A stretch of DNA of 57,691 nt. Source: Myroides odoratus DSM 2801 (GTDB taxonomy: Bacteria; Bacteroidota; Bacteroidia; Flavobacteriales; Flavobacteriaceae). A model generated the notes under the pieces. It saw only the letters and a program-made list of their open reading frames with translations, was not told the origin of the DNA and ran no database searches. Of this stretch, positions 1 through 57,691 are shown one piece after another; positions within the stretch are counted from its first letter, which is position 1; every line of letters begins with the position of its first letter. The translations under genes were made by a program, and so were the position numbers. The stretch covers positions 3,847,214 to 3,904,904 of the forward strand of contig NZ_CM001437.1 in the NCBI RefSeq assembly GCF_000243275.1, in the 5' to 3' direction.

Positions 1-1
1 T

Positions 2-1640
2 ACCTTACTGGCCAATACCGATGGAACTTATACGTATAAATCAGAGAATGGAACCGAAACTATTATTGATATTCCAGCTTCTGTAGCGAACAATTTCGAA
101 ACGATAGTCAACAACAATCCAGAGAAGGTAAAAGAGATTATTGAAAAAGTTGCCAAAGACGTTGAAGGAAATGTAATCTATAATGGAACAGAATTGGTAT
201 ACAAAGATGGGAATGGAGATGATCAAATCATTAATCTCGATCAATTGGTAAAAGCCAATGAAACGGTAACTACTTTACTTGCTAATACCGATGGGACGTA
301 TACCTATAAATCAGAGAATGGTACAGAGACCATCATCGATATTCCAGCTTCTGTAGCCAACAACTTCGAAACGATTGTCAACAACAATCCAGAGAAAGTA
401 AAAGAGATTATCGAGCAAGTAGCCAAAGACGTAGAAGGCAATGTGACCTATAACGGAACGGATTTGGTGTACAAAGATGGTAATGGAGATGATCAAGTGA
501 TCAACCTAGACCAATTGGTTAAAGCCAATGAAACCGTTACAACTTTACTTGCTAATACCGATGGTACGTATACCTATAAATCAGAGAATGGTACCGAAAC
601 CATCATCGATATTCCAGCCTCAGTAGCCAACAATTTCGAAACGATTGTCAACAACAATCCAGAGAAAGTAAAAGAAATTATCGAGCAAGTAGCCAAAGAC
701 GTAGAAGGCAATGTGACCTATAACGGAACGGATTTGGTGTACAAAGATGGTAATGGAGATGATCAAGTAATCAACTTGGATCAACTCGTAAAAGCCAATG
801 AAACCGTTACGACTTTGCTTGCTAATACCGATGGAACGTATACCTATAAATCAGAGAATGGTACCGAAACGATTATTGATATTCCAGCTTCTGTAGCGAA
901 TAACTTTGAAACGATTGTCAACAACAATCCAGAGAAAGTAAAAGAGATTATCGAGCAAGTAGCCAAAGATGTTGAAGGAAATGTTACTTATAATGGAACA
1001 GATTTACTGTACAAAGATGCAGCTGGCGCAGATCAAGTAGTTAATCTAGACCAACTAGTTAAAGCCAATGAAACGGTAACTACCTTACTGGCTAATACCG
1101 ATGGAACTTATACGTATAAATCAGAGAATGGAACCGAAACTATTATTGATATTCCAGCTTCTGTAGCGAACAATTTCGAAACGATAGTCAACAACAATCC
1201 AGAGAAAGTAAAAGAAATCATCGAAAAAGTTGCCAAAGACGTTGAAGGAAATGTAATCTATAATGGAACAGAATTGGTATACAAAGATGGGAATGGAGAT
1301 GATCAAGTAATCAACTTGGATCAACTCGTAAAAGCCAATGAAACGGTAACTACTTTACTTGCTAATACCGACGGAACCTATACCTACAAATCGGAAAATG
1401 GTACCGAAACGATTATTGATATTCCAGCTTCGGTAGCCAATAATTTCGAAACGATTGTAAACACCAATCCAGAGAAAGTAAAAGAAATCATCGAAAAAGT
1501 TGCCAAAGACGTAGAAGGAAACGTTACCTATAATGGGATGGATTTACTGTATAAAGATGCAACTGGCGCAGATCAAGTGATTAATCTCGATCAACTGGTT
1601 AAAGCTAATGAAACTGTTACAAAACTAGTCGATAATCATG
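2..1640 (+). repeat. Tandem 270-bp (90-codon) coding repeats
   Basis: Units begin with the VYKD or LYKD codons at 197, 467, 737, 1007, 1277 and 1547, spaced exactly 270 bp, with a partial unit before 197. Bases 1-120 are almost identical to 1081-1200, so unit 0 matches unit 4 better than it matches its neighbours. This indicates block duplication or gene conversion at a 1080-bp scale. Confidence 0.95.
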
Positions 1641-2293
1641 ATGGAACTTATACTTATTTTAATGAAAAAGCGATAGATGTTAATGGGAATCCAATTGAAA
1701 ATCAGGGAGTCGTTTTTAAATTGAATGATGGATATTCTTTAATTGATATGGCAGATTATACTATTACTGCTGCATTAAATAAATCTTATACTTATAATCA
1801 AATTGTAGGTCAAAATATTCAAAGTGAAGGAGAATGGCGCTATATTCCTCAATCAACAGTTTCTTTTAATGATCCAATTTATAGACTTAATTTTAGATCT
1901 GATATAAATAAAGATGAAAAAAGATATATTCAATTATCGAGTGTATTAAAAACTAGTTTTGAAACTATTAATGATTTTACAGTTAGGCAACATTCTGCAG
2001 CTAAAATAGTAGTATCTATTTATATAAACAATCAGTTAATTGCTTCTTATGAAGATTATTTAGTATTACCCCTTGGAGGAGGAGATCCTTTACTTTCAAA
2101 GTATTCAAAAAGTATTAATATAGATAATTTGACTCTTTTAGAGACAAACAATGTTTTAGAAATAAAAGCAGCAGTAGAATCATCAACATTCAAAAAAAAT
2201 GGAGGAAATCAAGATGGAAATTTTGCTAATAATGATATGAAATTATTAACATTTAGTATTAATGATATATCCTTTCAATTATTTCAAAAATAG
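2..2293 (+). CDS. 90-residue tandem-repeat surface protein, 5' end outside window
   Basis: The reading frame is open from base 2, so the true start lies upstream; the TTG at 194 is a leucine codon inside a repeat, not a start. Up to about base 1640 the protein is a chain of 90-residue units, each with KANETVTTL, a GTYTYKSENG segment, a NNFETIVN segment and a GNVTYNGT segment. A unique C-terminal part of about 218 residues (1640-2293) follows. It carries no type B sorting motif, so export by T9SS is not shown by its own end. The unit is homologous to that of the protein starting at 55831. It is the first gene of a run ending at 7275. I infer a stalk or fibre-like exported protein; the function is unknown. 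Confidence 0.8.
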   Translation, partial: TLLANTDGTYTYKSENGTETIIDIPASVANNFETIVNNNPEKVKEIIEKVAKDVEGNVIYNGTELVYKDGNGDDQIINLDQLVKANETVTTLLANTDGTYTYKSENGTETIIDIPASVANNFETIVNNNPEKVKEIIEQVAKDVEGNVTYNGTDLVYKDGNGDDQVINLDQLVKANETVTTLLANTDGTYTYKSENGTETIIDIPASVANNFETIVNNNPEKVKEIIEQVAKDVEGNVTYNGTDLVYKDGNGDDQVINLDQLVKANETVTTLLANTDGTYTYKSENGTETIIDIPASVANNFETIVNNNPEKVKEIIEQVAKDVEGNVTYNGTDLLYKDAAGADQVVNLDQLVKANETVTTLLANTDGTYTYKSENGTETIIDIPASVANNFETIVNNNPEKVKEIIEKVAKDVEGNVIYNGTELVYKDGNGDDQVINLDQLVKANETVTTLLANTDGTYTYKSENGTETIIDIPASVANNFETIVNTNPEKVKEIIEKVAKDVEGNVTYNGMDLLYKDATGADQVINLDQLVKANETVTKLVDNHDGTYTYFNEKAIDVNGNPIENQGVVFKLNDGYSLIDMADYTITAALNKSYTYNQIVGQNIQSEGEWRYIPQSTVSFNDPIYRLNFRSDINKDEKRYIQLSSVLKTSFETINDFTVRQHSAAKIVVSIYINNQLIASYEDYLVLPLGGGDPLLSKYSKSINIDNLTLLETNNVLEIKAAVESSTFKKNGGNQDGNFANNDMKLLTFSINDISFQLFQK

Positions 2294-2364
2294 TTTGATC
2301 ATCTATACAAACTATTCAATTCTATAAAAATAATCAGACTTTTAAATAACATAAATTAATTAGA

Positions 2365-3009
2365 ATGATAAGGTTAAATAATGTTTTAAAAAATATTAAT
2401 ATGAAAAATATAATCTTCATGGGAATTATATCATTAATGCCCTATTTTGTTCAAGCACAACAAATTGAAAAAGGAAAAAAACCTTTAGTTATAGAACAAG
2501 CTATTGTAGAGGTTGAAGGAAAAATTTTTTTAGTAATTAATAAAAGAGATACTCAAAAATTGACAGTAAAAGGTACTATGTATAACGTACAATTTGACGG
2601 TAGTATTGAAGGAATTAATACAGATAAAGTACAGATTAGCACAAATAAAGAGGAATTAATTTTTGCACCAAATAGAGTTTTTAGAATTACGGGGGCTATA
2701 GGAGTACGTGGAGCAAGTTCAAATGGATTAGGGAGTAATAAACCAGGTTATATTACTAGTGAATTTAATCTTATTAGTGGAGGTCGAGTTTTGGTAAGTA
2801 CTAAGGGGTATACTGAATCCTCTACTGAAGGATATGATGATGGAGGGGTAACTCAACCTGTTATGATTTTTACCTCTGATGCTGCAGGTGCTCATTTAAA
2901 TTTAAAAGTTAGGTATGGTGGTTCAGCTGCTGGTAATGATGGATATTACTTAGCAGGAGAAGCAACTACTTCATCAGTGGGAACATATATTTTGGTGGAA
3001 GAGCTTTAG
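2365..3009 (+). CDS. Small exported protein of unknown function (module A)
   Basis: A 214-residue protein. The second in-frame ATG at 2401 would give a compact signal peptide (MKNIIFMGIISLMPYFVQAQ) and is a plausible true start; the first ATG adds 12 residues. No Shine-Dalgarno sequence helps, as is usual in Bacteroidota. The mature part begins after AQ and looks beta-rich, with many Gly, Ser and Thr residues and a C-terminal TYILVEEL strand. I recognise no family. It lies between the repeat protein and the sorting-domain protein in the same orientation, so an accessory surface or periplasmic role is inferred from position only. Confidence 0.7.
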   Translation: MIRLNNVLKNINMKNIIFMGIISLMPYFVQAQQIEKGKKPLVIEQAIVEVEGKIFLVINKRDTQKLTVKGTMYNVQFDGSIEGINTDKVQISTNKEELIFAPNRVFRITGAIGVRGASSNGLGSNKPGYITSEFNLISGGRVLVSTKGYTESSTEGYDDGGVTQPVMIFTSDAAGAHLNLKVRYGGSAAGNDGYYLAGEATTSSVGTYILVEEL

Positions 3010-3077
3010 TTAATTTAGATGTAGTTAACAGATTTCTTTTAAATAGATTGTCTTTTTTTAATTAAAAACAATAAGAA

Positions 3078-4361
3078 ATGAAAAAAAACTATAAATATTT
3101 AATCATACTTACCTTATGCAGTTCAATTGTTTTAGCACAAGAAAATGAATCTGAACATTTTATTAATGTTGGTCAATTTATGGTTGCTGAAGGGACAATT
3201 TTAAGTAGTGATTATATGTTCGAAAATAGTCCTACTGGAAATTTCGAAAATAAAGGGAAAATCTATTATTACAATGATTTTAAAAATGATAATTTATTTT
3301 ATTCTAGTGGTTTAGTTAAAGATGCAACAGTTCTTTTTTCATCCAAAGATGTAAAAAAGCGCATACAAATAAGTGGGCAAAAACCAATAGAATTTCAAAA
3401 TGTAGAATTTGAACATATTAATTCAGATTTAGGTTTTATGTTATCTAATGAAATTTCCGTCAAAGGTAATTCTAATTTTATTTCAGGTATTATTGAAGTA
3501 ATAGAGAAAAAAGGAATGTTCACTTTCTTAAATAATTCAAATGCTCTTAATGCTTCGGATTTAAGTCATGTAAGAGGAGCAGTAGAAAAACAAGGATCAC
3601 AAAATTTTGTTTTCCCAATCGGGGAAGGAGGTTTTTTTCGTCCTGCTATGATCAGCGCCCCAAAAGACATTCAAGATGTTGTTGTTGCTCAATACCGTTT
3701 AAACGACACACCTTTCTTTGAGAATCACAAATCAACTACAGGAGCAATTAAAAAACTCAATGATAAAGAGTATTGGAAGTTGGATGCTAAATTAAAATCA
3801 AAAGAAACAGTTATTTTAAGTCTTACTTGGGATGATCGTACCACTCCTAGTGATTTGCTAAAAAATCCAGAAGATGAGTTACATATTGTTCGCTGGGATG
3901 ATAAGCAGCAGTTGTGGGTGGATGAAGGAGGTGTGGTGGATATGTCTACTAAAACAGTAACTACACCAACAACAATTAAAGACTTTGGTTTTTTTACATT
4001 GGCTGCGGTAAAGAGAGACTGGATTTTGGATGGAGATGTAGTAATTTACAATTTAGTAACTCCAGACGGAGATGGTAAAAATGACTATTTTATAATTGAT
4101 AACATCCAAAAATATCCAAATAATCGAGTAGAAATTTATAATCGTTGGGGAATAAAGGTGTTTGAAACTACAGGATATGATCCCAATGGAGATGGAAGTT
4201 CTAATGTATTTACAGGATATTCAGAAGGAAAAATCACAGTAGATAAGAGTAAAAAACTACCAAGTGGAACTTATTACTATGTGGTTACCTATGAGTATAA
4301 GGATGATAACGGTAGCCGTATGATTAAAAAAGCGGCTAATTTACATTTAGAGACCAATTAA
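3078..4361 (+). CDS. T9SS type B sorting-domain protein (gliding motility-associated C-terminal domain), module A
   Basis: 427 residues with a signal peptide ending at about residue 20 (SIVLAQ). The middle carries an FPIGEGGFFRPA segment near residues 180-195 and a DEGGVVD motif near 285, both found in the paralogs at 36900 and 51563. From about residue 320 there is a type B C-terminal domain (CHU_C/TIGR04131 type) with VTPDGDGKNDYF at 327, VEIYNRWG, and LPSGTYYYVVTY. Such domains direct outer-membrane passage by the type IX system, commonly with a partner PorP/SprF barrel. That barrel gene starts 11 bp downstream. The central part matches no function I know. Confidence 0.9.
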   Translation: MKKNYKYLIILTLCSSIVLAQENESEHFINVGQFMVAEGTILSSDYMFENSPTGNFENKGKIYYYNDFKNDNLFYSSGLVKDATVLFSSKDVKKRIQISGQKPIEFQNVEFEHINSDLGFMLSNEISVKGNSNFISGIIEVIEKKGMFTFLNNSNALNASDLSHVRGAVEKQGSQNFVFPIGEGGFFRPAMISAPKDIQDVVVAQYRLNDTPFFENHKSTTGAIKKLNDKEYWKLDAKLKSKETVILSLTWDDRTTPSDLLKNPEDELHIVRWDDKQQLWVDEGGVVDMSTKTVTTPTTIKDFGFFTLAAVKRDWILDGDVVIYNLVTPDGDGKNDYFIIDNIQKYPNNRVEIYNRWGIKVFETTGYDPNGDGSSNVFTGYSEGKITVDKSKKLPSGTYYYVVTYEYKDDNGSRMIKKAANLHLETN

Positions 4362-4372
4362 ACCACAAGAAT

Positions 4373-5305
4373 ATGAAAGTAAGAGACACATTAAAGGCAA
4401 TAGTTCTTGGAGGGGTAGGTTTGTTTTGTATGGCGCAAACTTATGGTCAACAAGACCCGCAATACACGCAATATATGTATAATCATTCGAATATCAACCC
4501 AGCATATGCAGGAAGTAGAGAAGGATTAAACATTTTTGGACTTTATCGCACCCAGTGGGTTGGTCTTGAAGGAGCTCCCAAAACGGCAACTGTATCGGTG
4601 AATACTCCTTTGGGAGATTCTGGTCTAGGATTAGGGGTAAGTTTTGTAAATGATCATTTGGGAGTTATGGATAACAATACATTATCTATTGATTTATCCT
4701 ATGCCATTTATTTGAATTATGAATACAAACTGGCTTTTGGATTAAAAGGATCAGGGAGTTTATTAGATGTAAATTACAGTAAATTAAACATCTATAATCC
4801 AACGGATCCCGTAGTAGAAGACGATGTTAAGAATGAATTTACACCTAATATTGGAGCTGGATTATTTTTGTACTCTGATAAAGCTTATCTTGGGTTGTCA
4901 GCTCCTCATTTATTGACACGTTCACGTTATGATGACAATAATGTAAAAACGCTTCGAGAGAAAATGCACCTATATTTAACAGGAGGGTATGTATTTGACT
5001 TGAATCCAAATTTAAAATTCAAACCAGCAGCTATGGTGAAAATGGAACAAGGATCACCTTTGCAAATAGATGTATCAGCGAATTTTATGTTTGTTGATAA
5101 ATTTACTGTTGGAGCGGCTTATCGTTGGGATGCCTCTGTAAGTGGGCTAGTTGGTTTTCAAGTATCGGAAAACATCTTTGTTGGCTATAGTTACGATGCC
5201 GAAACAAGTAAGCTAGCGCGTTATAATTCAGGGTCTCATGAAATTTTTATGCGATTCACTTTGTTTAATGGATTCAAGCGTGTTGCTGCGCCAAGGTTCT
5301 TCTAA
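4373..5305 (+). CDS. PorP/SprF family outer-membrane protein (module A)
   Basis: 310 residues with a signal peptide of about 26 residues and the family opening QQDPQYTQYMYN followed by NPAYAGS. The rest has the alternating pattern of a beta-barrel and ends in APRFF, fitting an outer-membrane terminal strand. SprF-type proteins handle export or surface attachment of type B T9SS substrates, as SprF does for SprB in Flavobacterium johnsoniae. It sits 11 bp after the sorting-domain gene and 11 bp before the OmpA-type gene, so operon transcription is very likely. It is strikingly similar to the module C copy at 52892, less so to the module B copy. Confidence 0.92.
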   Translation: MKVRDTLKAIVLGGVGLFCMAQTYGQQDPQYTQYMYNHSNINPAYAGSREGLNIFGLYRTQWVGLEGAPKTATVSVNTPLGDSGLGLGVSFVNDHLGVMDNNTLSIDLSYAIYLNYEYKLAFGLKGSGSLLDVNYSKLNIYNPTDPVVEDDVKNEFTPNIGAGLFLYSDKAYLGLSAPHLLTRSRYDDNNVKTLREKMHLYLTGGYVFDLNPNLKFKPAAMVKMEQGSPLQIDVSANFMFVDKFTVGAAYRWDASVSGLVGFQVSENIFVGYSYDAETSKLARYNSGSHEIFMRFTLFNGFKRVAAPRFF

Positions 5306-5316
5306 AAGATACAATT

Positions 5317-7275
5317 ATGGTAAAAAGAATCATACAAATAGGGATATTGACTTTATGCCTAAGTTGGGGAACCACAGGCTTTAGTCAAATAAAAAAAGAG
5401 AAACAAGCAGATAAAAACTTTAATCGTACTGCTTATATAAATGCTATTGATACCTATGAACGAATGGTTGAAAGTGGATATGTTAATGCATCAATATTAC
5501 AAAATTTAGCCGATGCTTACTATTTTAATGGCAAATTAGAACAAGCCAATAAATGGTATACAGAATTATTTGAAGGAAGCTATGAAGGTAAAAATCTGTC
5601 GAATCTTCCCTCAGAATACTACTACCGCTATAGTCAAACATTAAAAGCTATTAAAGATTACAAAAAGGCGGAGGCTATGATTGATCAATTTTCAATTTTA
5701 GAAAAACAAGATACGAGAGTAGAGCGATTCAATAAGGATAGATTATATGTTGAACATATTGAAAATCAGTTAAATAAATATGATGTCAGATTGCTTACTA
5801 TCAATAGTGCCTATTCTGATTACGGTGGAACGGTTTTAGATTATCAGTTTGTATTTACCTCTGCGCGGGAAACAGAGCATCAGAAGAAAAGCAAAATACA
5901 CAGCTGGACCAATGAAAGTTATACAAGCTTGTACAGTGCAGAGATTGATCAAAATGGCATCGGAAATCCTACGCGATTAATCGTAGGAAGTGAGACTCAA
6001 GTTAACGATGCAACTGCTGTTTTTACCTCTGACGGAAAAACGATGTTTTTTACGCGAAATAATTCGAAATTAAGTGGCAAGAGCAAGCAAAATAAGCATC
6101 ATGATTCTTTATTGAAATTGTATAAGGCAACAAAACAATCAGATGGGACATGGGGACAAGTAGAGGAATTACCAATCAATTCGGACAATTTTAATACCGC
6201 TCATCCAGCTTTAACTCCTGACGATAAATGGTTGTATTTTGCTTCTGATAGAAAGGGAATACTAGGGCAATCCGATTTATACCGAGTTGAACTATATGAG
6301 GATGGGGGATATGGTTCTATAGAGAATCTCGGAAAAACAGTCAATACAGAAGGTAGAGAAAGTTTTCCTTTTATCTCTTCTGATTTTCAATTGTATTTTG
6401 CCTCTGATGGACATCCAGGGTTAGGAGGAATGGATGTATTTGTATCTAAATTAAATCCTAACGGAAGCTTTGGTCCTGTAGTGAATATGGGAGAACCAAT
6501 AAATAGTAGTATGGATGATTTTGGTTTTTATTGGGATGCTCATAAAGCAACAGGTTTTGTTAGTTCAAATCGCGTAGAAGCAAGTGGCGGGGATGATATA
6601 TACTTAGTATCAGAGAAACCGTGTAAACGAATAATTGAGGGGAAAGTATATGATAAGAATACGAGAGAACTAGTAAGTAATGCGAAAATTATTATCTCAG
6701 ATATTTTGCATCAAAAGAATGATGTAGTATACACCAATGATAAGGGAGCGTATCGTATTTCTGATTTGAATTGTACAATGAATTATAGTTTAAAAGCGGA
6801 AAAAGAAGCATATAATACATTTCAGACTTCTTTAGAGCTTAATAGTGATTCAGCTATTCAGACTTTTGATATTGAACTTGAAAAACTACACAAGCAGGTT
6901 GATATAAATCAAGGTTTATCTACAAATTTAAGAATAGAACCGATTTATTTTGATTTTGATAAATCAAATATACGTTATGATGCTAGTATTGAATTAAAGA
7001 AAATAGTTGAAATTATGCATAAGTATCCAACTATGAAGATAGATATACGTTCACATACTGATAGTAGAGGAAATGATTCTTATAATCTTAGTTTATCTAA
7101 TCGTCGGGTAAAAGCTACTATTAATTGGATGATAAAGCAAGGTATTGAAGCAGGCCGTTTATCTGGACGTGGTTATGGGGAGACTCAATTGCTAAATTCA
7201 TGTAGTAATGTGCATTGTACAGAAGCTGAGCATCAATTTAATCGCAGAAGTGAATTTATTATTTTGGAATTATAG
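5317..7275 (+). CDS. PorE-like TPR / beta-propeller / OmpA protein (module A)
   Basis: 652 residues. Order: signal peptide (about 1-24, ending GFSQ); TPR-like helices to about 150 with LADAYYFNGKLEQANKWY; PD40/WD40-type propeller blades at about 190-420, including HPALTPDDKWLYFASDR near 294; a carboxypeptidase-regulatory-like domain from about 435; and an OmpA peptidoglycan-binding domain at about 540-650 with YFDFDKSNIR and HTDSRGN. This matches the architecture of the T9SS component PorE of Porphyromonas gingivalis. No lipobox is visible, so it is probably a soluble periplasmic protein. I infer that it ties its SprF partner to the cell wall. Paralogs lie at 39228 and 53836. Confidence 0.88.
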   Translation: MVKRIIQIGILTLCLSWGTTGFSQIKKEKQADKNFNRTAYINAIDTYERMVESGYVNASILQNLADAYYFNGKLEQANKWYTELFEGSYEGKNLSNLPSEYYYRYSQTLKAIKDYKKAEAMIDQFSILEKQDTRVERFNKDRLYVEHIENQLNKYDVRLLTINSAYSDYGGTVLDYQFVFTSARETEHQKKSKIHSWTNESYTSLYSAEIDQNGIGNPTRLIVGSETQVNDATAVFTSDGKTMFFTRNNSKLSGKSKQNKHHDSLLKLYKATKQSDGTWGQVEELPINSDNFNTAHPALTPDDKWLYFASDRKGILGQSDLYRVELYEDGGYGSIENLGKTVNTEGRESFPFISSDFQLYFASDGHPGLGGMDVFVSKLNPNGSFGPVVNMGEPINSSMDDFGFYWDAHKATGFVSSNRVEASGGDDIYLVSEKPCKRIIEGKVYDKNTRELVSNAKIIISDILHQKNDVVYTNDKGAYRISDLNCTMNYSLKAEKEAYNTFQTSLELNSDSAIQTFDIELEKLHKQVDINQGLSTNLRIEPIYFDFDKSNIRYDASIELKKIVEIMHKYPTMKIDIRSHTDSRGNDSYNLSLSNRRVKATINWMIKQGIEAGRLSGRGYGETQLLNSCSNVHCTEAEHQFNRRSEFIILEL

Positions 7276-7329
7276 AATATTGTTTTGCTATAACTTTCTT
7301 ATTTATAAAACAATAAAAGAATAACATGG

Positions 7330-7368: not shown

Positions 7369-7438
7369 TACTTTTTGGAAAAAAGTAATAAGTAAATATA
7401 AATATCATTGAGATAATTTTTACTTGCGATAAGTTAAA

Positions 7439-17664: not shown

Positions 17665-17807
17665 GTTTAAAATTATTGATTTTGTAATTTAATCAAATTA
17701 AACCATTATATCATTAAATAATTATCTTAATTTATTGGTAATATTTTTAATTAAAATAGTTGTAGTCCTTATTTAATAGTACCTTGATAAATATAAAAGT
17801 AAGGAAT

Positions 17808-28971: not shown

Positions 28972-28974
28972 GTC

Positions 28975-35123: not shown

Positions 35124-36794
35124 ATGAAAAAAATTACAGTAATTGCCGCTTTATTAGGAGGAATTTGTTTTGCACAAGCTCAAGTTGGAATAGGTACATC
35201 TAGGCCTAAAGATTCAGCTCTTTTAGATTTAACAGCATCAGATAAAGGTATTTTAATCCCTAGAGTGGAATTAACTAGTAGTAATGTTTTTGCTCCAATT
35301 GTGGGAGATAAAGAAGAAGGGCTACTTGTTTATAATACAAAAAAAGCGGGTTCAGGTGATACAGCTGTTGAACCAGGATTTTATTTTTGGAAGAAAGAAA
35401 ATAATGGACACTGGGAGCGTGTTAGTAGCAAAGGAGATATTGAGACGGTAATCAATAATATGGGAACGGATGTTGAATCTATAGTGGAGTTACTTCAAAA
35501 AGCATATCCATCTAATAAATTAGGTGATTCTCCTACCACAGAGAAAGCAGGAGGGATGGTGTATACCCCTGGAGAGAATGGAGGCAATAGCAAAATAGGA
35601 TATGTTGTTTATGATACAGCTTCTAGTGGATATAAGACTATAGATGTGACATCAGAGTTTGAAGCGATAGTGTCAGGTACTGAATCTAATACTACTATTG
35701 TGTCATATAAGAATGAACAATATTATTTATCAGAAAGTTATATGCGTTCAGGCGCATCAACAGATACCTCAACTTGGCAAAGAGTACCTGATGGTGCGAT
35801 TAAAATAGAAGTAGTTGGTGCAATTTCAGAAAATATCAAGAATATCCTAGAAAATGTTATAGTTGAAGTTGACGGGAGACAATATTCATTCGAGGATTAT
35901 ATTGAATATATCTCAGAAACTACTAAAAAGGATGGAGAAACTAAAATTGTGCTAGATACAGATGGTCAAGCAGAGTTTCAAACTTGGGATAAAGTCGGAG
36001 AAGCATGGAAAGTAGTTAGTAATGATAAGTTCTCTAGAATTGTAAAAGCAAATGAAACTCAAACAACTCTTACTCGTAGTGAAAATGGACAAGATTATGC
36101 TAAACTAGCATTAGATCCTAAGGCTCAGGGAAAAGTTGTTTATGAATTTACAGATGAAAAAGGAGAAACCAGTTATATTGATTTAGGGGGGGATATTAAA
36201 TATGTTATTGAAAATAATAATGATATCTATGAATCCATCCAAAATATTATTAATCAAGGAGGAAATGTGTATTATGGTAAAATTGCAGGAGGTACTGAGA
36301 ATGTATTGTATATGAAAGACACAAGTGTTGAACCTGCAGTAGATACACCTATTGATATTTCTCAAACAATTATTAATAATATTACAACCAATATGACGGA
36401 TGAAAATATTAATATTTTTAAAAATCAATTAGGTAATACAATTAATGTTGGTGGTGAGTCATCTTCTTTTACAGGTGATACATATGTTAAAGGAGGGGTT
36501 ACATATTATATTTATAAAGGTTTATATTCAGCTACTATTGAAGGAAAAACGGCTGATATTAAAAGTAATGGGGGAAAGATTAGAATAGATAAACCTGTGT
36601 TTGAGATTGTATCTATAAACTTAAAGTATGGAATAGGAACTCCTGCCCCTGTTACTGGTTTGACACTTTCAGGAAATGACATTGCTTTTAAGATAGGTTC
36701 AGGTAGTTATTATATTGTATTGTCTGCAGAAGATCTTTCAGTTGATGTTGTTGTAGAGTTTGCATCTACACAAAAACCTGCAGGTATAGAGTAA
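35124..36794 (+). CDS. VGIGT-type exported surface protein (module B)
   Basis: 556 residues. After the signal peptide (ending FAQAQ) it opens with VGIGTSRPKDSALLDL and GILIPRVEL, then LLVYNTKKAG and PGFYFWKK, an N-terminal module shared with the protein at 55831. It has single diverged copies of elements from the 90-residue repeat (VKANETQTTL, VIENNNDIYESIQNIINQGGNVYY in part) rather than a tandem array. It has no type B sorting domain. It starts module B, in the place the repeat protein holds in module A. I infer a stalk or tip protein of a surface structure; the function is unknown. Confidence 0.78.
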   Translation: MKKITVIAALLGGICFAQAQVGIGTSRPKDSALLDLTASDKGILIPRVELTSSNVFAPIVGDKEEGLLVYNTKKAGSGDTAVEPGFYFWKKENNGHWERVSSKGDIETVINNMGTDVESIVELLQKAYPSNKLGDSPTTEKAGGMVYTPGENGGNSKIGYVVYDTASSGYKTIDVTSEFEAIVSGTESNTTIVSYKNEQYYLSESYMRSGASTDTSTWQRVPDGAIKIEVVGAISENIKNILENVIVEVDGRQYSFEDYIEYISETTKKDGETKIVLDTDGQAEFQTWDKVGEAWKVVSNDKFSRIVKANETQTTLTRSENGQDYAKLALDPKAQGKVVYEFTDEKGETSYIDLGGDIKYVIENNNDIYESIQNIINQGGNVYYGKIAGGTENVLYMKDTSVEPAVDTPIDISQTIINNITTNMTDENINIFKNQLGNTINVGGESSSFTGDTYVKGGVTYYIYKGLYSATIEGKTADIKSNGGKIRIDKPVFEIVSINLKYGIGTPAPVTGLTLSGNDIAFKIGSGSYYIVLSAEDLSVDVVVEFASTQKPAGIE

Positions 36795-36899: not shown

Positions 36900-38183
36900 A
36901 TGAATAAATTAATACATAATCAATGTTTGCTATATTATTTTTTTATAGCAAGTTTTTCTGTGACAGCTCAAATAACTCCTAATAAAACTATTTTCACAAA
37001 TTATGGCGGACTATATATAACTCCTAAAACTCAAATTCATACTTATTATGACTTTGAAAATCAGGAGACTGGAAAGGTGTTTAATGATGGAATGATGTCT
37101 TTTTATGGGAACTATTTAAATAATGGATTATTTACTTATAGAACGAATAGTCAAACTGGTTTAGTAGAGTTTAAAGGACAAGGAGGAGTTGCACAAGAAA
37201 TAAAAGGAGAGGCTCCTAGTAGTTTTTATAATATTTCATTTGATAAAACTTTAGCTAATTATTCTTTTCATTTAGCAAATGATTTTTCTGTAGAAGGAAC
37301 AGCAAATTTAACAAATGGCGTTGTTTTTATTGATCAAGAAAAGGGAGGTTCCTTTTTATTTTCAAAAGGAGCTAGACAAAAGAATGCATCAAAAAATAGC
37401 CATTTCGATGGAATGATTATAAAAGAGGGAAATGACGCTTTTCAATTTCCTTTAGGAAATAAAGGTAAATATAGACCTGCTGGTATTTCTGTTTCACCAA
37501 ATTTAAAAGATGTTTTTTTAGGTAGATATATCTATGAGGATGAAGTTTTCTTTAAACAGTACAAAAACAAGTCTAGTATTATTGAGTTAGTAGACGAAAA
37601 GGAGTATTGGATTATTGAAAAACAAGGAAAAAATCAAGAAGGCATTATGTTAACGCTTAGTTGGAGTGATGAAACAACTCCAACAGAGTTGTTAAGCGAT
37701 CCAGAATTGAATTTACACATAGTTCGTTGGGATGCAGAACAGGAAATGTGGGTTGATGAAGGTGGAGTTGTTGATGTTCTAACCAAAGAAATTACAACTC
37801 CTGCTCAAGTAAGTGGGTATGGATATTTTACCTTAGGAAGGATAAAGCCAAATAAACTTTTAGAAGGTGATATTGTTATTTACAACTTAGTTAGCGCTAA
37901 TGGTGATGGAAGGAATGATTACTTTAAGATAGACAAGATTCAAAAGTTTCCTGATAATAAGGTTGAGATTTATAATCGTTGGGGTACTCGAGTTTATGAA
38001 ACTAAGAACTATGATAGTAATGGTAATGTATTTAGAGGAAATTCGGAAGGAAAAGGGACTCTTGGTAAAGGAGGAAAACTACCTACAGGAACCTATTTTT
38101 ATATAGTTACTTATCAATACAAAGATGCTAACGGATCACGACCAATTAAAAAATCGGGGTATTTGCATTTAGAGACTAATTAA
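36900..38183 (+). CDS. T9SS type B sorting-domain protein (module B)
   Basis: 427 residues; signal peptide to about residue 24 (SFSVTAQ). It aligns along its length with the module A and C proteins: FQFPLGNKGKYRPAG, VRWDAEQEMWVDEGGVVD, then the CHU_C/TIGR04131-type end with VSANGDGRNDYF, VEIYNRWGTRVYE and LPTGTYFYIVTYQY. It is exported by the type IX system. The next gene (SprF type) begins about 100 bp later, a larger gap than in modules A and C. It is more diverged from A and C than they are from each other. Confidence 0.9.
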   Translation: MNKLIHNQCLLYYFFIASFSVTAQITPNKTIFTNYGGLYITPKTQIHTYYDFENQETGKVFNDGMMSFYGNYLNNGLFTYRTNSQTGLVEFKGQGGVAQEIKGEAPSSFYNISFDKTLANYSFHLANDFSVEGTANLTNGVVFIDQEKGGSFLFSKGARQKNASKNSHFDGMIIKEGNDAFQFPLGNKGKYRPAGISVSPNLKDVFLGRYIYEDEVFFKQYKNKSSIIELVDEKEYWIIEKQGKNQEGIMLTLSWSDETTPTELLSDPELNLHIVRWDAEQEMWVDEGGVVDVLTKEITTPAQVSGYGYFTLGRIKPNKLLEGDIVIYNLVSANGDGRNDYFKIDKIQKFPDNKVEIYNRWGTRVYETKNYDSNGNVFRGNSEGKGTLGKGGKLPTGTYFYIVTYQYKDANGSRPIKKSGYLHLETN

Positions 38184-38286
38184 TGGTAGTAGACAATTGA
38201 TTTATAAAATTTATTGCCTAGTGATTAGAGTAAAAATAAAATTGTGATACGACTTTATGCAATTTAAAATTAGTGCTAAGAAAGTT

Positions 38287-39216
38287 ATGAAAATAAATAT
38301 AAAATTAAAAAGCATTATTGTGTGTTATATATATTGCGGATTTTATGGAGTTTATGCTCAACAAGATCCGCAATATACTCAGTATATGTATAATCATGCA
38401 AATATAAATCCTGCTTATGCGGGAAGTGTTGAGACCTTAAATATATTTAGTTCTTATAGAACTCAATGGGTCGGATTAGATGGAGCTCCTAAAACTGCTG
38501 CTATTTCTGCAATAACCTCTTTAAATGATTCTAGAATGGGAATTGGGGTACATTTTATGAATGATAAAATTGGTGCAATGACAGAAAATATGATTGCTGT
38601 AGATTTTTCATATGCAATTACCTTAAATACGGAATGGAAATTATCTTTAGGGGTAAAAACCTCTATGAATTTATTAGATGTTGATTATTCTAAATTAGAT
38701 GTTTATAATCCTTCTGATCCAGTGTTAGAAAGTAATATATCTAATAAATTTAAACCTAATATCGGAGCAGGACTATTTGCCTATTCGCATAATGCATATG
38801 TAGGATTATCTGTTCCTCAGTTGCTAGTTACAACACGTTATAATGACAATGAAGTTACTATATTAAAAGAAAAAATGCACTTTTACCTAACTGGTGGTTA
38901 TGTCTTTGATATGGGATATTATGTCCAATTTAAACCAGCATTACTTATTAAAGCAAGTCAAGGATCCCCAGTTCAAGTTGATTTAGTAACTAATTTTTTA
39001 GTTATGGAAAAATTCACAGTTGGTGCTAGCTATCGTTATAATACCTCTGTTAGTGGACTTGTTGGTTTTCAGGTAAGCAAAAATTTATTTATTGGTTATA
39101 GTTATGATGCAGAAACAAGTAAACTTAATAATTACGGATCTGGGTCTCATGAGTTTTTTATGAGATTTAATTTATTCAATAAGATTTGGAAAACACCAGC
39201 TCCTAGATTCTTTTAA
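38287..39216 (+). CDS. PorP/SprF family outer-membrane protein (module B)
   Basis: 309 residues from the ATG at 38287, chosen because it gives a signal peptide like those of the two paralogs; an upstream in-frame ATG at 38257 would add 10 residues. Family marks: QQDPQYTQYMYNHANINPAY in segments, SYRTQWVGLDGAPKT, and the C-terminal strand ending APRFF. It is the presumed outer-membrane partner of the preceding sorting-domain protein. The PorE-like gene follows 11 bp later. Confidence 0.9.
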   Translation: MKINIKLKSIIVCYIYCGFYGVYAQQDPQYTQYMYNHANINPAYAGSVETLNIFSSYRTQWVGLDGAPKTAAISAITSLNDSRMGIGVHFMNDKIGAMTENMIAVDFSYAITLNTEWKLSLGVKTSMNLLDVDYSKLDVYNPSDPVLESNISNKFKPNIGAGLFAYSHNAYVGLSVPQLLVTTRYNDNEVTILKEKMHFYLTGGYVFDMGYYVQFKPALLIKASQGSPVQVDLVTNFLVMEKFTVGASYRYNTSVSGLVGFQVSKNLFIGYSYDAETSKLNNYGSGSHEFFMRFNLFNKIWKTPAPRFF

Positions 39217-39227: not shown

Positions 39228-41198
39228 ATGAAGAAACTTTTATTTCAAATTTTGTGTTATAATTTAGTTATTACAACACCTTTTTATGGATATGCGCAAT
39301 TAGGTTTAGAAAAAAAGGCAGAGAAGCAATATGCTAATTATGCCTATGTTGATGCAATTAAAATTTATGAACATATTACTGATAAGGGATATTATAATAC
39401 TTCTATTTTAAGCAAATTAGCTAATGCATATTATTTTAATGGTAAGTTAATAGAAGCAAATAAATGGTTTACAAAACTATTTGAATGGAAAGAGTTTGAT
39501 AAAGACAATAAAGATTTCTCAGCCGAGTATTATTATCGTTATGCTCAAACTTTAAAAGCTATAAATGATTACGAGAAGTCAGATAGAATGATGGAGATGT
39601 TTGCTAATATTGAAAAAAGCGATACTAGATCACGATTGTTTAACGCGAATAAAAATTATTTAAAAGTAATAGATTCTTTATCTGATAAATATGAATTGAT
39701 ACAACTTCATTTTAATAGTAAGTATTCGGATTATGGAACTGCTTTTTTTGAGGATAGATTAGTTTTTACTTCTGCGAGAGAAGATTTTAATTGGAAAGGT
39801 AGTATTGATCAAAGGACAAAGGAAAGTTATACGAAATTATATTCTGTGAAACTTAATAAGGATGGGAGTTTTGGAGAGGTACTACCTTTTTATGATGATT
39901 TAAATTTACAAGCAATAAATGAATCAAGCGCTGTATTTTCAAACGATCAAAATACAGTGTATTTTACTAAAAACTACTCTTCTTTAAAAGGTAAAAAGCG
40001 TTTTAATAAAAAAACTAGAACTTCTTTTTTAAAAATTTATAAGAGGGAGCGATTAAGTAATGGAAAATGGGGAGATGTTGAAGAATTAGCTATTAATTCT
40101 AAATATTCTAATACAACGCATCCTACATTGTCTCCCGATGGTAAATGGCTCTATTTTGTTTCTGATAGAGCAGGAGGAATTGGACAGACTGATATTTTTA
40201 GAGTAGCTATTTATGATAATGGTACTTATGGAGAAGTTGAGAACTTAGGTGGAAATATCAACACAAAAGCAAGAGAAACATTTCCTTATATAGCCAAAGA
40301 TAATACACTCTATTTTTCTTCTGATGGTAGACCTGGATTAGGGGGGTTAGATGTTTACAAGGTGAAGTTAAATAAAGAGGGGACTTTTGGAGAAGTTGTA
40401 AACTTAGGAAGTCCTATTAATAGTTCTTTTGACGATTTTGGTTTCTATCTGGACGCTTCATTGACAAATGGGTTTGTTAGTTCTAATAGACCTGGAGGAA
40501 TAGGAGGTGATGATATCTATTATTTTAAAGAAAAAACGTGTAAAGAACAAATTTATGGCTACGTATATGATGCCGAAAGTAAAGAAGCAGTTTCTGGTGC
40601 ATATTTAATTCTATATGATGCTTTTTACGATGTTTTAGGCACTACAAAAACAGATGAATTGGGACTATTTAAAATACCAGATATTATTTGTCATGATAAA
40701 TATAGAATAAAGATTTCTAAAGCGAATTATATAACAAGTGAAACCGTTTATTTGTCAGATAATCAAGAGGTTGGGAAGAAGTTTGTTGATTTCTACCTAA
40801 ATAAGCAAAATATACTTTTAGAGCCAAATGATGATTTGTTCAAGAAATTAGATTTAAATCCAATTCATTTTGATTTTGACAGGTATGATATTAGAGAAGA
40901 TGCAAAAATTGAGCTTATGAAAATCATAGCTGTTATGAAGGAAATACCAACCATGAAGATATCAGTAAGAGCACATACTGATAATAGAGGGGATAAGTAT
41001 TATAATTTTAAATTATCCGAAAAACGAGCTAAAGCTACTATTGATTGGATTATTGCCCATGGAATTGATAGTAACCGGATAGAAGGAGTTGGATATGGAA
41101 AGAGTTTTTTACTCAATGAGTGTGATAAAGATAATGAATGTAATGAGAAGGAACATGAAATGAACCGAAGAAGTGAATTTATTATAATGAGTATTTAA
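39228..41198 (+). CDS. PorE-like TPR / beta-propeller / OmpA protein (module B)
   Basis: 656 residues with the same order as the module A copy: signal peptide ending YAQ, TPR-like region (LANAYYFNGKLIEANKWF), propeller with HPTLSPDGKWLYFVSDR and LYFSSDGRPGLGGLDVY, carboxypeptidase-regulatory-like domain after CKEQIYGYVYD, and OmpA domain with FDFDRYDIR and HTDNRGD. It is expected in the periplasm, holding peptidoglycan. It is the most diverged of the three copies, in step with the rest of module B. A CI-repressor-like gene follows 21 bp later. Confidence 0.88.
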   Translation: MKKLLFQILCYNLVITTPFYGYAQLGLEKKAEKQYANYAYVDAIKIYEHITDKGYYNTSILSKLANAYYFNGKLIEANKWFTKLFEWKEFDKDNKDFSAEYYYRYAQTLKAINDYEKSDRMMEMFANIEKSDTRSRLFNANKNYLKVIDSLSDKYELIQLHFNSKYSDYGTAFFEDRLVFTSAREDFNWKGSIDQRTKESYTKLYSVKLNKDGSFGEVLPFYDDLNLQAINESSAVFSNDQNTVYFTKNYSSLKGKKRFNKKTRTSFLKIYKRERLSNGKWGDVEELAINSKYSNTTHPTLSPDGKWLYFVSDRAGGIGQTDIFRVAIYDNGTYGEVENLGGNINTKARETFPYIAKDNTLYFSSDGRPGLGGLDVYKVKLNKEGTFGEVVNLGSPINSSFDDFGFYLDASLTNGFVSSNRPGGIGGDDIYYFKEKTCKEQIYGYVYDAESKEAVSGAYLILYDAFYDVLGTTKTDELGLFKIPDIICHDKYRIKISKANYITSETVYLSDNQEVGKKFVDFYLNKQNILLEPNDDLFKKLDLNPIHFDFDRYDIREDAKIELMKIIAVMKEIPTMKISVRAHTDNRGDKYYNFKLSEKRAKATIDWIIAHGIDSNRIEGVGYGKSFLLNECDKDNECNEKEHEMNRRSEFIIMSI

Positions 41199-41219
41199 AA
41201 GTGGAAAAGATTGCGAAAT

Positions 41220-41852
41220 ATGGATGATAAGAATATAATAATCTCTTCAACTGAGAATGTCATTGAAAAAATAAAAATCTCATTAGGATTAGATAGAGAT
41301 AAAGAACTAGCTATACTATTAAATGTTAAATTTAATACACTTTCTAGTTGGAAAATAAGACAAAGTATTCCTTATAAGAAGATCTTTGAGATATGTAGTA
41401 AATATGACCTGGATTTAAATGATATAATATATGATAATTATTCAGATGTAAAGAATGAGTTAATTAGAGTTCCGATTTTATTCTTGGATAATTATTGGTC
41501 ATATTTTTATGATTTAAAATTCAATAAAACAAGCTTACAATATTTTCTGTTACCTAGAGAAGTAGCAGATATAGATATTATAATTCAGTTGACGAAAAGA
41601 TCTTCAGTATCAAAATTTTCTAGTGAATTAATGTATGTGTTATGTAAAAAAGTTAATTTAAAAGACTTAATAATTACAAAATCATATGTTTTTACAATTA
41701 AAAGTATGGGGATATTTGATTGTATACTAGTTAGTATGAATTTTGAAAATCAAAAGTACAAGCTTAAACTTCAAGATAATACTTATGTAGAAGTTTCTTT
41801 TGAAAAAGTAATTGAAATTTATTCATATAAAGGGAAATATTATAAGCTATAA
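41220..41852 (+). CDS. CI-repressor-like helix-turn-helix protein attached to module B
   Basis: 210 residues from the ATG at 41220 (an in-frame TTG at 41211 is less likely). Residues about 12-70 read VIEKIKISLGLDRDKELAIL then TLSSWKIRQSIPYKKIFEIC, the pattern of the phage CI-repressor helix-turn-helix family. The C-terminal part could be an S24-like or dimerisation domain, but no serine-lysine pair is evident. It begins 21 bp after the PorE-like gene and is closed by a terminator, so it looks like the last gene of module B and a candidate cassette regulator. Modules A and C lack it. Confidence 0.7.
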   Translation: MDDKNIIISSTENVIEKIKISLGLDRDKELAILLNVKFNTLSSWKIRQSIPYKKIFEICSKYDLDLNDIIYDNYSDVKNELIRVPILFLDNYWSYFYDLKFNKTSLQYFLLPREVADIDIIIQLTKRSSVSKFSSELMYVLCKKVNLKDLIITKSYVFTIKSMGIFDCILVSMNFENQKYKLKLQDNTYVEVSFEKVIEIYSYKGKYYKL

Positions 41853-44673: not shown

Positions 44674-44973
44674 ATGAAAAGAATTAGAAAGGCCTACGAT
44701 GCTGCTTTTAAGCAGCAAGCCGTTGAACTGGCTAAGGAAAGAACAAACAAATCAGAATTGGCTCGTGAACTTGGAATCAGACCCACATTATTGTATAAAT
44801 GGTGTAAAGAAGCTCAAGAGTTAGGCGATGCTAGTTTTCCAGGTAATGGTAAACAAAAGCTGACTCCAGAACAAGAAAGGATAAAAGAGTTAGAAAAGAA
44901 GTTAGCGGCTGTTGAATTAGAACATGAAATATTAAAAAAAGCAATCGGCATTTTCTCAAAGACCGGCAAATGA
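44674..44973 (+). CDS. IS3-family transposase OrfA
   Basis: 99 residues. The helix-turn-helix reads KQQAVELAKERTNKSELARE in the first 40 residues, followed by LLYKWCKEAQ and a leucine-zipper-like helix (IKELEKKLAAVELEHEILKKA). It binds the IS ends and regulates transposition. Its stop TGA overlaps the ATG of orfB (ATGA at 44970-44973), allowing translational coupling or a frameshift to make OrfAB. Confidence 0.93.
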   Translation: MKRIRKAYDAAFKQQAVELAKERTNKSELARELGIRPTLLYKWCKEAQELGDASFPGNGKQKLTPEQERIKELEKKLAAVELEHEILKKAIGIFSKTGK

Positions 44974-45845
44974 TTTACATGTTCATATTTGATCATGAAC
45001 ATGAATTTCCGATTGGGATTATGTGTAAAGTTTTAGAGGTAAGTAGAAGTGGTTATTATCATTGGAAACGGTCTCCTGTTAATAAAAGAAAACAAGCCAA
45101 AGCAGATCTAAAACGTGTTATTACAGAAGTTTATCTAGAATTTAAACAACGTTATGGCAGTCCTCGTCTTACAATAGAACTCAATGCCCGAGGTTATAAA
45201 ATATCTAAACCAACTGTTGCTAAGTACATGAAAGAGTTAGGATTACGTAGTAAAATAGCTCGACGATATAGAATAACCACAGACTCTGAACACAATTATT
45301 TAGTGGTTGAAAATATTTTAGATAGACAATTTACACAAACTGAACCAGGGAAAGCCTGGGTGTCTGACATTACTTATATCGCTGTTAAAGAAGGGTTTAT
45401 TTACCTAACTACAATAATAGATTTATACGATAGAAAGGTTATTGGATGGAGTTTGAGTAAAGATATGTCAACAGAAAATACCACCTTGGCTGCCTTTAAA
45501 ATGGCTAAAAAGAACAGAGTTTTTGAAGAAGGACTAATTTTCCATTCTGACCAAGGAGTACAATATGCAAACTACAAATTTGCAAACTATTTAGAGTCCT
45601 TTAATGTTGTTAGAAGCATGAGTAGGAAGGCTAATTGTTGGGATAATGCTGTAGCAGAAAGCTTCTTTAAATCCTTAAAAGTGGAGATGGTTTATGGGAA
45701 TTTACAATTAAGTACAAAGCAAATGGAATCTAAAGTCTTTGAATATATCGAAATGTGGTATAATAAAAAACGAAGACACTCCTACTTAAACTACAAGACA
45801 ATCAACGAATTTAATCAAATAATAAATATTAATAAAGCTGCTTAA
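44970..45845 (+). CDS. IS3-family transposase OrfB (integrase)
   Basis: 291 residues. An HTH_21-like region (YGSPRLTIELNARGYKISK) precedes the rve integrase core. The catalytic triad is Asp133 (WVSDITYI), Asp194 (FHSDQGVQY) and Glu230 (NAVAESFFKSLK), a D-35-E spacing expected for IS3. The frame is intact, so the element may still move. The 291-residue size is normal. Confidence 0.95.
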   Translation: MIYMFIFDHEHEFPIGIMCKVLEVSRSGYYHWKRSPVNKRKQAKADLKRVITEVYLEFKQRYGSPRLTIELNARGYKISKPTVAKYMKELGLRSKIARRYRITTDSEHNYLVVENILDRQFTQTEPGKAWVSDITYIAVKEGFIYLTTIIDLYDRKVIGWSLSKDMSTENTTLAAFKMAKKNRVFEEGLIFHSDQGVQYANYKFANYLESFNVVRSMSRKANCWDNAVAESFFKSLKVEMVYGNLQLSTKQMESKVFEYIEMWYNKKRRHSYLNYKTINEFNQIININKAA

Positions 45846-55797: not shown

Positions 55798-55830
55798 TAC
55801 GCAGGAAACATAATTTAAACAACTAATCAC

Positions 55831-57691
55831 ATGAAAAAGAGATGGATTTTACTCGGTGCTTTTTGTACTGGGGCAATAAGTTACGCTCAAGTTGGAATAG
55901 GTACGGCTACCCCTAATCCTTCTTCTCAACTTGAAATAACTTCTGATAAAAGAGGGATTTTAATCCCTCGAGTTGAATTAAAAAGTCTTACTGACAATGG
56001 TACGATTACCAATGGAAATGTTGAAAGTTTATTGGTTTATAACGTAACAGATTCAGGAGATTTACAACCAGGATATTATTTTTGGAAAGGAAATAATTGG
56101 AATCGATTTTTAACAGAATTAGATGGTAAAGAATGGAGTAATGCAAAAAATAAAAGTTTTGTAGTTGAAGATGATTTACTTAAACTATATGATGAAAATG
56201 ATGATGTTATTTTTATAGATCTTCAAAGTTTAAATATCGTTACCACGTTAGTTAAAGATTCATCAGGTAATGGAAAGTATACGTATAAAAATGAGGCAGG
56301 GACGGAAGTCATGATTGATGTTCAGGCTGATGTGATCAACAACTTCGAAGACATTATCAATAATACGAATGTTCAAGAAATTTTAAATCAATACCTTACA
56401 GAGAATGCGGGTAACGTTCACTATGACGGAAATTCCTTTACGTATGTCAATGAAGATGGAGATACGGTTACCTTGGATATGTCCACAATCATTAAGGCCA
56501 ATGAAACTATTACCACGTTAGTTAAGGATCCATCAGGCAACGGACAATACACCTATACCAATGAGGCAGGTGTAGCTGTAGTAATTGATGTTCAGGCTGA
56601 TGTGATCAATAACTTTGAAGATATCATCAACCAAACTGACGTCCAGGAAATCATCAACAATATCATTAAAAACGTAGGAGGTAACGTTCACTATGACGGA
56701 AATTCCTTTACGTATGTTAATGAAGATGGAGATACAGTTACCTTGGATATGTCTACAATCATTAAGGCCAATGAAACTATTACTACCTTAGTTAAGGATC
56801 CATCAGGCAACGGACAATACACCTATACCAATGAGGCAGGTGTAGCAGTTGTGATAGATGTACAAGCGGATGTTATCAACAACTTTGAAGAGATCATCAA
56901 CCAAACCGATGTACAGGAAATCATCAATAATATCATTAAAAACGTAGGGGGTAACGTTCACTATGACGGAAATTCTTTTACGTATGTCAATGAAGATGGA
57001 GATACAGTTACCTTGGATATGTCAACAATAATTAAGGCTAACGAAACCATTACTACTTTAGTTAAGGATCCATCAGGTAACGGACAATACACCTATACCA
57101 ATGAAGCAGGTGTAGCAGTTGTGATTGACGTACAAGCAGATGTGATCAACAACTTTGAAGATATCATCAACCAAACAGATGTACAGGAAATCATCAACAA
57201 CATTATTAAAAATGTAGGGGGTAACGTTCACTATGACGGAAATTCCTTTACGTATGTCAATGAAGATGGAGATACAGTTACCTTGGATATGTCAACGATT
57301 ATCAAGGCGAATGAAACTATCACTACTTTAGTAAAAGATCCATCAGGTAACGGACAATACACCTATACCAATGAAGCAGGTGTAGCAGTTGTGATTGACG
57401 TACAAGCAGATGTGATCAACAACTTTGAAGAGATCATCAACCAAACGGATGTACAGGAAATCATCAACAACATTATTAAAATGTAGGGGTAACGTTCACT
57501 ATGACGGAAATTCCTTTACGTATGTCAATGAAGATGGAGATACAGTTACCTTGGATATGTCTACAATCATTAAGGCCAATGAAACTATTACCACGTTAGT
57601 TAAGGATCCATCAGGCAATGGACAATACACCTATACCAATGAGGCAGGTGTAGCTGTAGTAATTGATGTTCAGGCTGATGTGATCAATAAC
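55831..57691 (+). CDS. VGIGT / 90-residue-repeat surface protein, frameshifted and cut by window end
   Basis: Signal peptide (ending SYAQ), then the VGIGT module (VGIGTATPNPSSQLEI, GILIPRVEL, LLVYN, PGYYFWKGNNW) shared with the protein at 35124, then from about residue 132 tandem 90-residue units (KANETITTLVKDPSGNGQYTY, NNFEDIINQ, GGNVHYDGNSFTYVNEDG in part). The frame stops at 57484-57486 because of two missing bases; the repeats resume in another frame from 57488 and run open to the window end. It is probably the N-terminal counterpart of the kind of protein whose C-terminus begins this window. Surface stalk inferred. Confidence 0.82.
56224..57691 (+). repeat. Tandem 270-bp coding repeats, set 2
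   Basis: Units recur every 270 bp (for example the FTYVNEDGDT codons at 56437, 56707, 56977 and 57247). NNFEDI and NNFEEI alternate between successive units, pointing to a two-unit (540-bp) higher-order repeat. Confidence 0.93.

Follow-up and report, generated by a model that had tools for sequence, protein, structure and literature searches.

A recurring pairing of fibre-type genes with small type B sorting-domain genes in SprF and PorE-like cassettes of Myroides odoratus and other flavobacteria

In Porphyromonas gingivalis, Gorasia et al. describe a complex of PorE, PorP and PG1035 in which a protein with a type B C-terminal domain (CTD), the kind recognized by the type IX secretion system (T9SS), is held on a PorP-like barrel that in turn is held by a TPR, propeller and OmpA protein that binds peptidoglycan (PMC9143113). 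The portions of that report available to us further state that six porP-like genes of Flavobacterium johnsoniae adjoin porE-like genes and propose that their substrates are fixed to the cell wall, and the accessible text of Paillat et al. counts five such operons and records static foci only for the substrate Fjoh_3952 (PMC12618676). Mobile SprF, by the parts of another study that we could consult, is bound to GldK via a CxC motif in its C-tail (PMC12635249), and T9SS effectors are described, in the sections seen of a further paper, as bearing their own sorting signature (PMC10202324). Here we analyze a stretch of 57,691 nucleotides from Myroides odoratus DSM 2801 (bases 3847214-3904904 of its 4.30-Mb single-contig assembly; hereafter the window), which carries three diverged triads of a type B CTD gene, a PorP/SprF barrel gene and a PorE-like gene, each accompanied by a gene for a VGIGT or 90-residue-repeat protein that we refer to as the fibre protein. 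Our main result is that this fibre gene and the small type B gene, whose product we term the dock, form a pair that recurs across many genera.

All features of the three modules lie on the forward strand. Dock, SprF and PorE-like genes follow one another in that order at 3078..4361, 4373..5305 and 5317..7275 in module A, at 36900..38183, 38257..39216 and 39228..41198 in module B, and at 51563..52879, 52892..53824 and 53836..55797 in module C. The original prediction for this DNA had proposed three paralogous T9SS surface cassettes with a shared gene order and gaps of mostly 11-12 bp, and this observation is confirmed: all nine triad genes were found, with CHU_C, PorP_SprF, PD40 and OmpA matches, and five of the six gaps within triads measure 11-12 bp, the sixth, between the type B and SprF genes of module B, being 73 bp. 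Protein identity between modules ranges from 44-59% for the type B proteins to 48-67% for the PorE-like proteins and 61-88% for SprF, and the best relative of the module C PorE-like protein, in strain XSfan, shares 98% protein identity with it. The genome as a whole encodes 19 SprF proteins (PF11751), or 17 after a mirrored contig end is dropped, so that the three modules are a subset, and 13 N-domain type B genes (the N-domain being the N-terminal part of the docks) were found in the loci read. The cassette had also been thought new, a claim that does not stand because PMC9143113 and PMC12618676, in the portions available, already describe a cassette of SprF, type B substrate and PorE-like protein. 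Compared with the P. gingivalis complex, the architecture and the peptidoglycan residues are alike; the accessible description of that complex has one type B protein, a lipoprotein PorE and no mention of a fibre gene, whereas here the copies are many, the fibre is encoded by a gene to itself and no lipobox is seen. Fjoh_3952-3951-3950 of F. johnsoniae is the same three-gene operon, likewise proposed to be a static anchor, and it differs in that no fibre gene is mentioned in the available part of the published description, on which the comparison is based. SprB and its SprF also consist of a type B CTD held by a dedicated SprF, but SprB is a single, very large polypeptide whose SprF has CxC and is tied to the moving track, whereas the fibre here is separate and SprF lacks CxC.

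The docks belong to the T9SS type B family by their C-terminal CHU_C / TIGR04131 region. The module A dock (427 aa) matches CHU_C at E 3.4e-24, TIGR04131 at 36.3 bits (cut-off 35) and the N-domain at 391 bits; that of module B matches CHU_C at E 4.4e-26, with an N-domain at about residues 31-315 and a type B CTD at about 320-427, and that of module C gives CHU_C E 3.8e-24 and 386 bits for the N-domain. Membership of the barrels in the PorP/SprF family is clear (PF11751 304.5, 279.7 and 300.7 bits for A, B and C; PorP_SprF E 3.7e-83 to 9.7e-91 across the three; TIGR03519 290 bits for module A, which alone was scored). Overall the third proteins show the domains and site of PorE, namely TPR, propeller, carboxypeptidase-like and OmpA parts and the Asp/Asn/Arg site, with a PD40 propeller and OmpA in each of the three, weak TPR matches in A and B only and a carboxypeptidase-like match in B that falls below cut-off. 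The NCBIfam PorE model NF052230 covers nearly the whole protein in the two that were run, at 318 (A) and 301 (B) bits against a cut-off of 600, and the best NCBIfam score goes to the CHU_0125 OmpA-like model NF053607 (427 and 388 bits, cut-off 620). By their sequences, these anchor proteins are classed as PorE-like, not as PorE itself. Residues D582, N590 and R597 of modules A and C (D585, N593 and R600 in B) match Asp576, Asn584 and Arg591, which the accessible part of PMC7192894 gives as the peptidoglycan residues of PorE, and they are invariant in 11 aligned PorE-like proteins; the best solved relative of the module C anchor is 6TOP, the PorE C-terminal domain.

We then consider the SprF C-tail, for which two open-ended SprF were left out of the count. 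CxC is found in none of 83 PorE-adjacent SprF, those of modules A, B and C included (the last 30 residues contain no Cys in 82 and a Cys in one), and the two CxC SprFs that were found both lack PorE alongside. The remaining SprF without PorE comprise 13 with no Cys and two with Cys, so absence of PorE does not imply CxC. Among SprF without a tail Cys, 75 of 95 end in PRFF, as in module A, and this ending may be a signature of PorE partners in the way that CxC is one of GldK partners. We offer this as a rule that can be read from sequence: SprF tails beside PorE mostly end in PRFF and lack CxC, as would suit static barrels, and CxC tails, as would suit mobile ones, have no PorE neighbor. The SprF anchor of these modules is thus probably static, a reading of tail and neighbor. 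Across ten triads of this genome, pairwise distances correlate between SprF and PorE (r 0.90), CTD and SprF (r 0.79) and N-domain and SprF (0.60), which argues that triads mostly duplicate as units, although common history by itself could produce such correlations. The N-domain is the most variable part, with a mean identity of 0.43 across these triads vs 0.74 for the CTD.

The original prediction attached a VGIGT or 90-residue-repeat protein to every module, and one is indeed present in all three, with the corrections that in module C it lies downstream and that in module B no 270-bp array was reported in the tandem-repeat scan. In module A the C-terminal part of the fibre protein occupies 2..2293, its frame open at the start of the window, with 270-bp tandem repeats (encoding the 90-residue repeats) at 1-1614 in 6.0 copies followed by the C-terminal region; the VGIGT start on this array lies 5' of the window, at position 7856 of locus L075. 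Between the fibre gene and the dock, at 2365..3009, is a gene for a 214-aa protein with a signal-like start and no family match. The module B fibre protein (35124..36794, 556 aa) scores 103 bits with the model of alignment A1, whose leading Gln results from row trimming, and has 488 relatives. The fibre gene thus lies 5' of the triad in A and B and 3' of it in C, where its first frame (55831..57486) begins 33 bp after PorE, its repeats continue in another frame past its end, and a 270-bp array of 5.4 copies (56240..57691) extends to the end of the window. Both ends of the window abut runs of exactly 100 N within 270-bp arrays, and such runs also stand in or near repeat arrays of several other loci of this genome; they are probably assembly gaps at which the repeats broke the assembly. 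Array reading frames are broken in the present assembly and were left as found. The outermost 20 kb at either end of the contig (L085 and L086) are exact reverse complements of each other; mirrored SprF and VGIGT matches suggest that this contig-end mirror reaches about 80 kb, and by the 100-kb mark it has ended. It is either an assembly artefact or a terminal inverted repeat.

To place these modules in a wider sample, we read stretches chosen out of longer lists, namely those of 60 SprF loci, of N-domain loci with strong (17) or weaker (23) matches and of 20 class-level loci, the N-domain loci of all three kinds being picked by the N-domain and not by VGIGT. Of 102 SprF loci sampled, 71 could be classed and 31 were left out for want of a CTD match or because the substrate was open-ended; one of these 31 is a 1981-aa CHU_C protein of the M. 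odoratus genome itself, missed by the CTD model and found by Pfam. Type B substrates in the classed loci fall into two sizes, 411-458 aa (n=39) and 626-4036 aa (n=32). A same-strand VGIGT gene lies within 15 kb of 31/39 short substrates and of 0/32 long ones, a difference that holds within the four genomes that have both size classes (stratified permutation p 0.00036); beside one long substrate (L096) a VGIGT gene is present on the opposite strand. As long genes take up much of each stretch fetched, and 6/32 long controls have less than 1.5 kb read 5', we recounted only substrates with at least 5 kb read 5', and VGIGT accompanies 28/31 short vs 0/16 long. Conservation of the neighborhood in other genomes, on which the original prediction depended, therefore holds in part: VGIGT is kept beside short N-domain type B genes in many genera and is absent from the same strand beside the 32 long ones. 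Six of the eight short substrates without VGIGT have exported repeat or other large proteins 5', some cut by contig ends, and upstream of the other two (L122 and L125) neither VGIGT nor a large exported protein was seen. In these loci the long proteins lack the N-domain of the short class: 30/32 long proteins match the dock model and do so from model position 286 or later (its last third), with one marginal extra match. In the M. odoratus genome, 21/40 VGIGT loci have a same-strand SprF no more than 10 kb away, against a mean of 1.4 under rotation (p 0.0015, four mirrored matches dropped), and 14/17 SprF have a same-strand VGIGT within 10 kb.

An operon-level count gives the same picture. It takes complete N-domain proteins of 300-680 aa only, with L085 dropped as a mirror copy, and includes two short N-domain genes from the 20 class-level loci, whose 18 long ones do not enter it. 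The operons of 68/87 N-domain genes contain a fibre-class gene, meaning one for a VGIGT protein, a 90-residue repeat or a collagen run, and 12 operons are cut by contig ends. None of the 32 long type B controls, seven of which are cut, has such a gene in its operon; with at least 5 kb upstream the figures are 55/64 and 0/16. By group, the fibre gene is found in 12/13 operons of the M. odoratus genome itself, 14/16 of Myroides type, 7/13 further ones of the same genus, 10/17 strong and 24/26 weak matches from other genera, and 1/2 from other families. SprF is next in the operon in 54/59 cases of the first four groups and PorE is in the operon in 45/59, while both counts are 0/26 in the weak group. 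As the pair occurs there with neither SprF nor PorE in the operon, the fibre-dock pair is more constant than the SprF-PorE anchor, which appears to be one way of holding it and comes and goes. We also ran the N-domain profile (A6) and the VGIGT profile on 199 Flavobacteriaceae genomes, M. odoratus included. Strong N-domain matches occur in 17/199 genomes, M. odoratus among them, and among the matches listed VGIGT occurs in 15/17 of these vs 63/182 of the others (p 2e-5). The neighborhoods read from this search were those of 17 strong matches in 16 other genomes and of the 23 weaker loci.

The fibre proteins have a signal-like start. No T9SS sorting domain of type A, B or C was found in those of modules A and B, whose C-termini are present, or in the available part of the module C protein, whose C-terminus is not present. 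Nor was a T9SS CTD found in nine fibre-operon proteins, in ten relatives (seven of which were rescanned, and one of which, L209, lacks its C-terminus), or in the Pfam annotation of 120 listed VGIGT relatives out of 488. Relatives reach 2063 aa. Collagen matches occur in 3/10 relatives from such operons, one of the three also giving a whole-protein YadA_head score, and another 1/10 carries a collagen-flanked surface repeat; one VGIGT protein scores exactly at the Peptidase_S74 cut-off, and the fibre relatives scanned have no YadA barrel or LPXTG anchor. In known proteins, Collagen, YadA-head and S74 domains function as trimers, and the Collagen and S74-type ones belong to extracellular fibres and phage tails. 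Some fibre relatives thus resemble collagen-like and YadA-type trimeric adhesins and S74 phage tail fibres, with the difference that anchoring here would go through a separate T9SS dock. Nine fibre-type proteins from different genera (L074, L105, L106, L153, L155, L159, L168, L022 and L031) share a C-terminal motif like SYMNIVFVVK, which is perhaps a common tip or folding domain.

Gene composition, the recurring fibre-dock pairing, the preserved residues of the peptidoglycan site and the absence of the cysteine motif of mobile SprF are computed results, and the chain from CTD through SprF and PorE to the cell wall is carried over from published work on relatives. From these we infer trimeric fibres in these modules, the docking contact, their surface location and the export route, and consider it fairly likely that each module specifies a stationary surface fibre, in which a CTD-less trimeric fibre is held by a small T9SS dock that is fixed via SprF and PorE to peptidoglycan. 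Signal peptides would bring all parts to the periplasm. The long protein with the VGIGT N-terminal domain would form a trimeric stalk or fibre of repeats. By analogy with PorV, as far as the accessible part of PMC10994853 describes it, the dock CTD would enter the SprA pore with SprF as its carrier, and after export the dock would be passed to its neighboring SprF, which would retain it at the surface. The PorE-like partner would tie SprF to the wall, its OmpA domain gripping peptidoglycan, such that the fibre is fixed instead of being hauled by the gliding track. The dock N-domain would hold the fibre and possibly carry it through the T9SS; the fibre would either ride with the dock or exit otherwise and bind the dock outside, and we favor riding because CTD-less fibre genes are repeatedly paired with a CTD-bearing dock gene. 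Several diverged modules would then supply a set of different fibres. A more sweeping proposal, which we put forward tentatively and with less than even confidence, is that the T9SS exports in trans, with trimeric fibres lacking a sorting domain riding on small CTD docks as a general Flavobacteriaceae fibre system held either by a dedicated SprF-PorE anchor or by shared shuttles.

Several points weigh against the fixed, dock-held fibre. Trimerization is hinted at by homology of place and of the N-terminal domain, since no collagen, YadA-head or S74 domain was found in the fibre proteins of modules A, B and C (A and C being incomplete) and the AlphaFold model of the module B protein is poor (predicted local distance difference test score 68, predicted template modelling score 0.32), with weak fold matches. 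Contact between dock and fibre is putative, the counts share ancestry and are not phylogenetically independent, 7/87 N-domain genes have no fibre neighbor in the operon, and the module C VGIGT gene lies 3' of its triad. A simple pattern finds no lipobox in the three PorE-like proteins, unlike in P. gingivalis PorE. VGIGT without a strong N-domain is common, as the 63/182 genomes attest among the matches listed, and two genomes (G026 and G036) have at least 45 and at least 41 VGIGT matches with only two and three SprF among the matches listed, expansions that are independent of SprF cassettes. Conversely, the N-domain is not a dedicated fibre dock everywhere, because in 18/20 loci of other families it lies inside proteins of at least 1054 aa, several of which end, as judged by eye only, like type A substrates. 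At three loci (L163, L164 and L170) the CTD model does not match the N-domain protein, two docks from outside the genus score slightly below the TIGR04131 cut-off (34.3 and 34.4 vs 35), and the N-domain type B protein of L161, at 662 aa, means that the size gap between 411-458 and 626-4036 aa is not absolute.

The alternative that survives best, though we judge it unlikely, is that dock and fibre are separate surface proteins of one operon, co-regulated without forming a complex, with the fibre leaving by another route. It draws on the many genomes in which VGIGT proteins occur with no strong N-domain match, because a fibre may then reach its place without a dock. It does not readily account for a pairing that is seen again in many genera, whether SprF and PorE are there or not, and that persists even where the CTD type is swapped. 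There is one such swap, in L192 from another family, where the neighbor of a VGIGT protein is an N-domain protein whose CTD is of type A (TIGR04183 51 bits, cut-off 23). Nor does it predict that no fibre gene would be found in the operons of the 32 long type B controls, of which 16 have at least 5 kb read upstream. We consider it improbable that the fibre protein is instead periplasmic, for example a spacer next to the PorE-like anchor that lies between the outer membrane and the wall. A signal-like start and the failure to find a sorting domain in the fibre proteins scanned are what such a spacer would have, but the Collagen and S74-type domains of relatives are typical of extracellular fibres and phage tails, and lengths to 2063 aa together with 270-bp arrays suit surface stalks.

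Marginally less probable again is the idea that the type B protein caps or assists the anchor, a role like that put forward for PG1035, and that VGIGT genes merely gather in the same recombining islands. PG1035 is, in the part of PMC9143113 available to us, dispensable for T9SS function and suggested to be a PorP cap, and transposase genes do lie between modules B and C, an rve integrase-core transposase at 44970-45845 and an IS66-family transposase fragment at 46606-47112. Gathering in islands sits poorly with the contrast seen within operons (68/87 vs 0/32, or 55/64 vs 0/16 with room upstream), and long type B cassettes of the same genomes do not gather VGIGT genes. That the modules encode gliding adhesins borne by mobile SprF, as the PorP/SprF barrel and type B CTD common to SprB-SprF might suggest, is very improbable given that 0/83 PorE-linked SprF have the CxC motif needed, by the accessible text of PMC12635249, for normal track attachment and that the PorE-linked F. 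johnsoniae substrate shows static foci only in the available part of PMC12618676.

The fixed, dock-held fibre therefore remains our preferred reading, and the original prediction is partly supported: what it described as a modular surface-structure system corresponds to surface cassettes that are modular and probably static, that bring a PorE-like anchor and a repeat fibre of their own, and that exist as many diverged copies and are conserved in other genomes too. In the open-access literature, with preprints outside the scope, the fibre-plus-dock pairing appears undescribed, and it recurs in many flavobacteria. If a large CTD-less fibre and a small CTD partner do form a two-gene unit, there would be more T9SS-dependent surface proteins than have been counted, many VGIGT and collagen-like proteins that are still unnamed would gain a suggested role, and the short and very long classes among the sampled type B proteins would be explained.

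Other genes recur beside the cassettes. Twelve bp after the module B PorE-like gene, at 41211..41852 on the forward strand, is a gene for a helix-turn-helix regulator (PF07022 E 1.7e-8), and helix-turn-helix proteins of about 213 aa also stand beside cassettes at L080:16622 and 19150, at L083:12602 and in L026, L029 and L030; they may regulate the cassettes. Two hydrophobic proteins, one of which has a weak AraC-type helix-turn-helix at its C-terminus, are encoded as a pair near cassettes at 47825-49836, at L083:13544-15830 and in L030 and L029. In one cassette type (L073:5172-10313, L027, L028 and L124) a protein of 1136-1514 aa and a 182-aa protein are encoded directly 5' of the dock. Between modules A and B, the window also holds a possible cyanophycin cluster (15917-16771 and 17784-20417), in which a gene resembling cyanophycin synthetase lies near one of the asparaginase-2 family.

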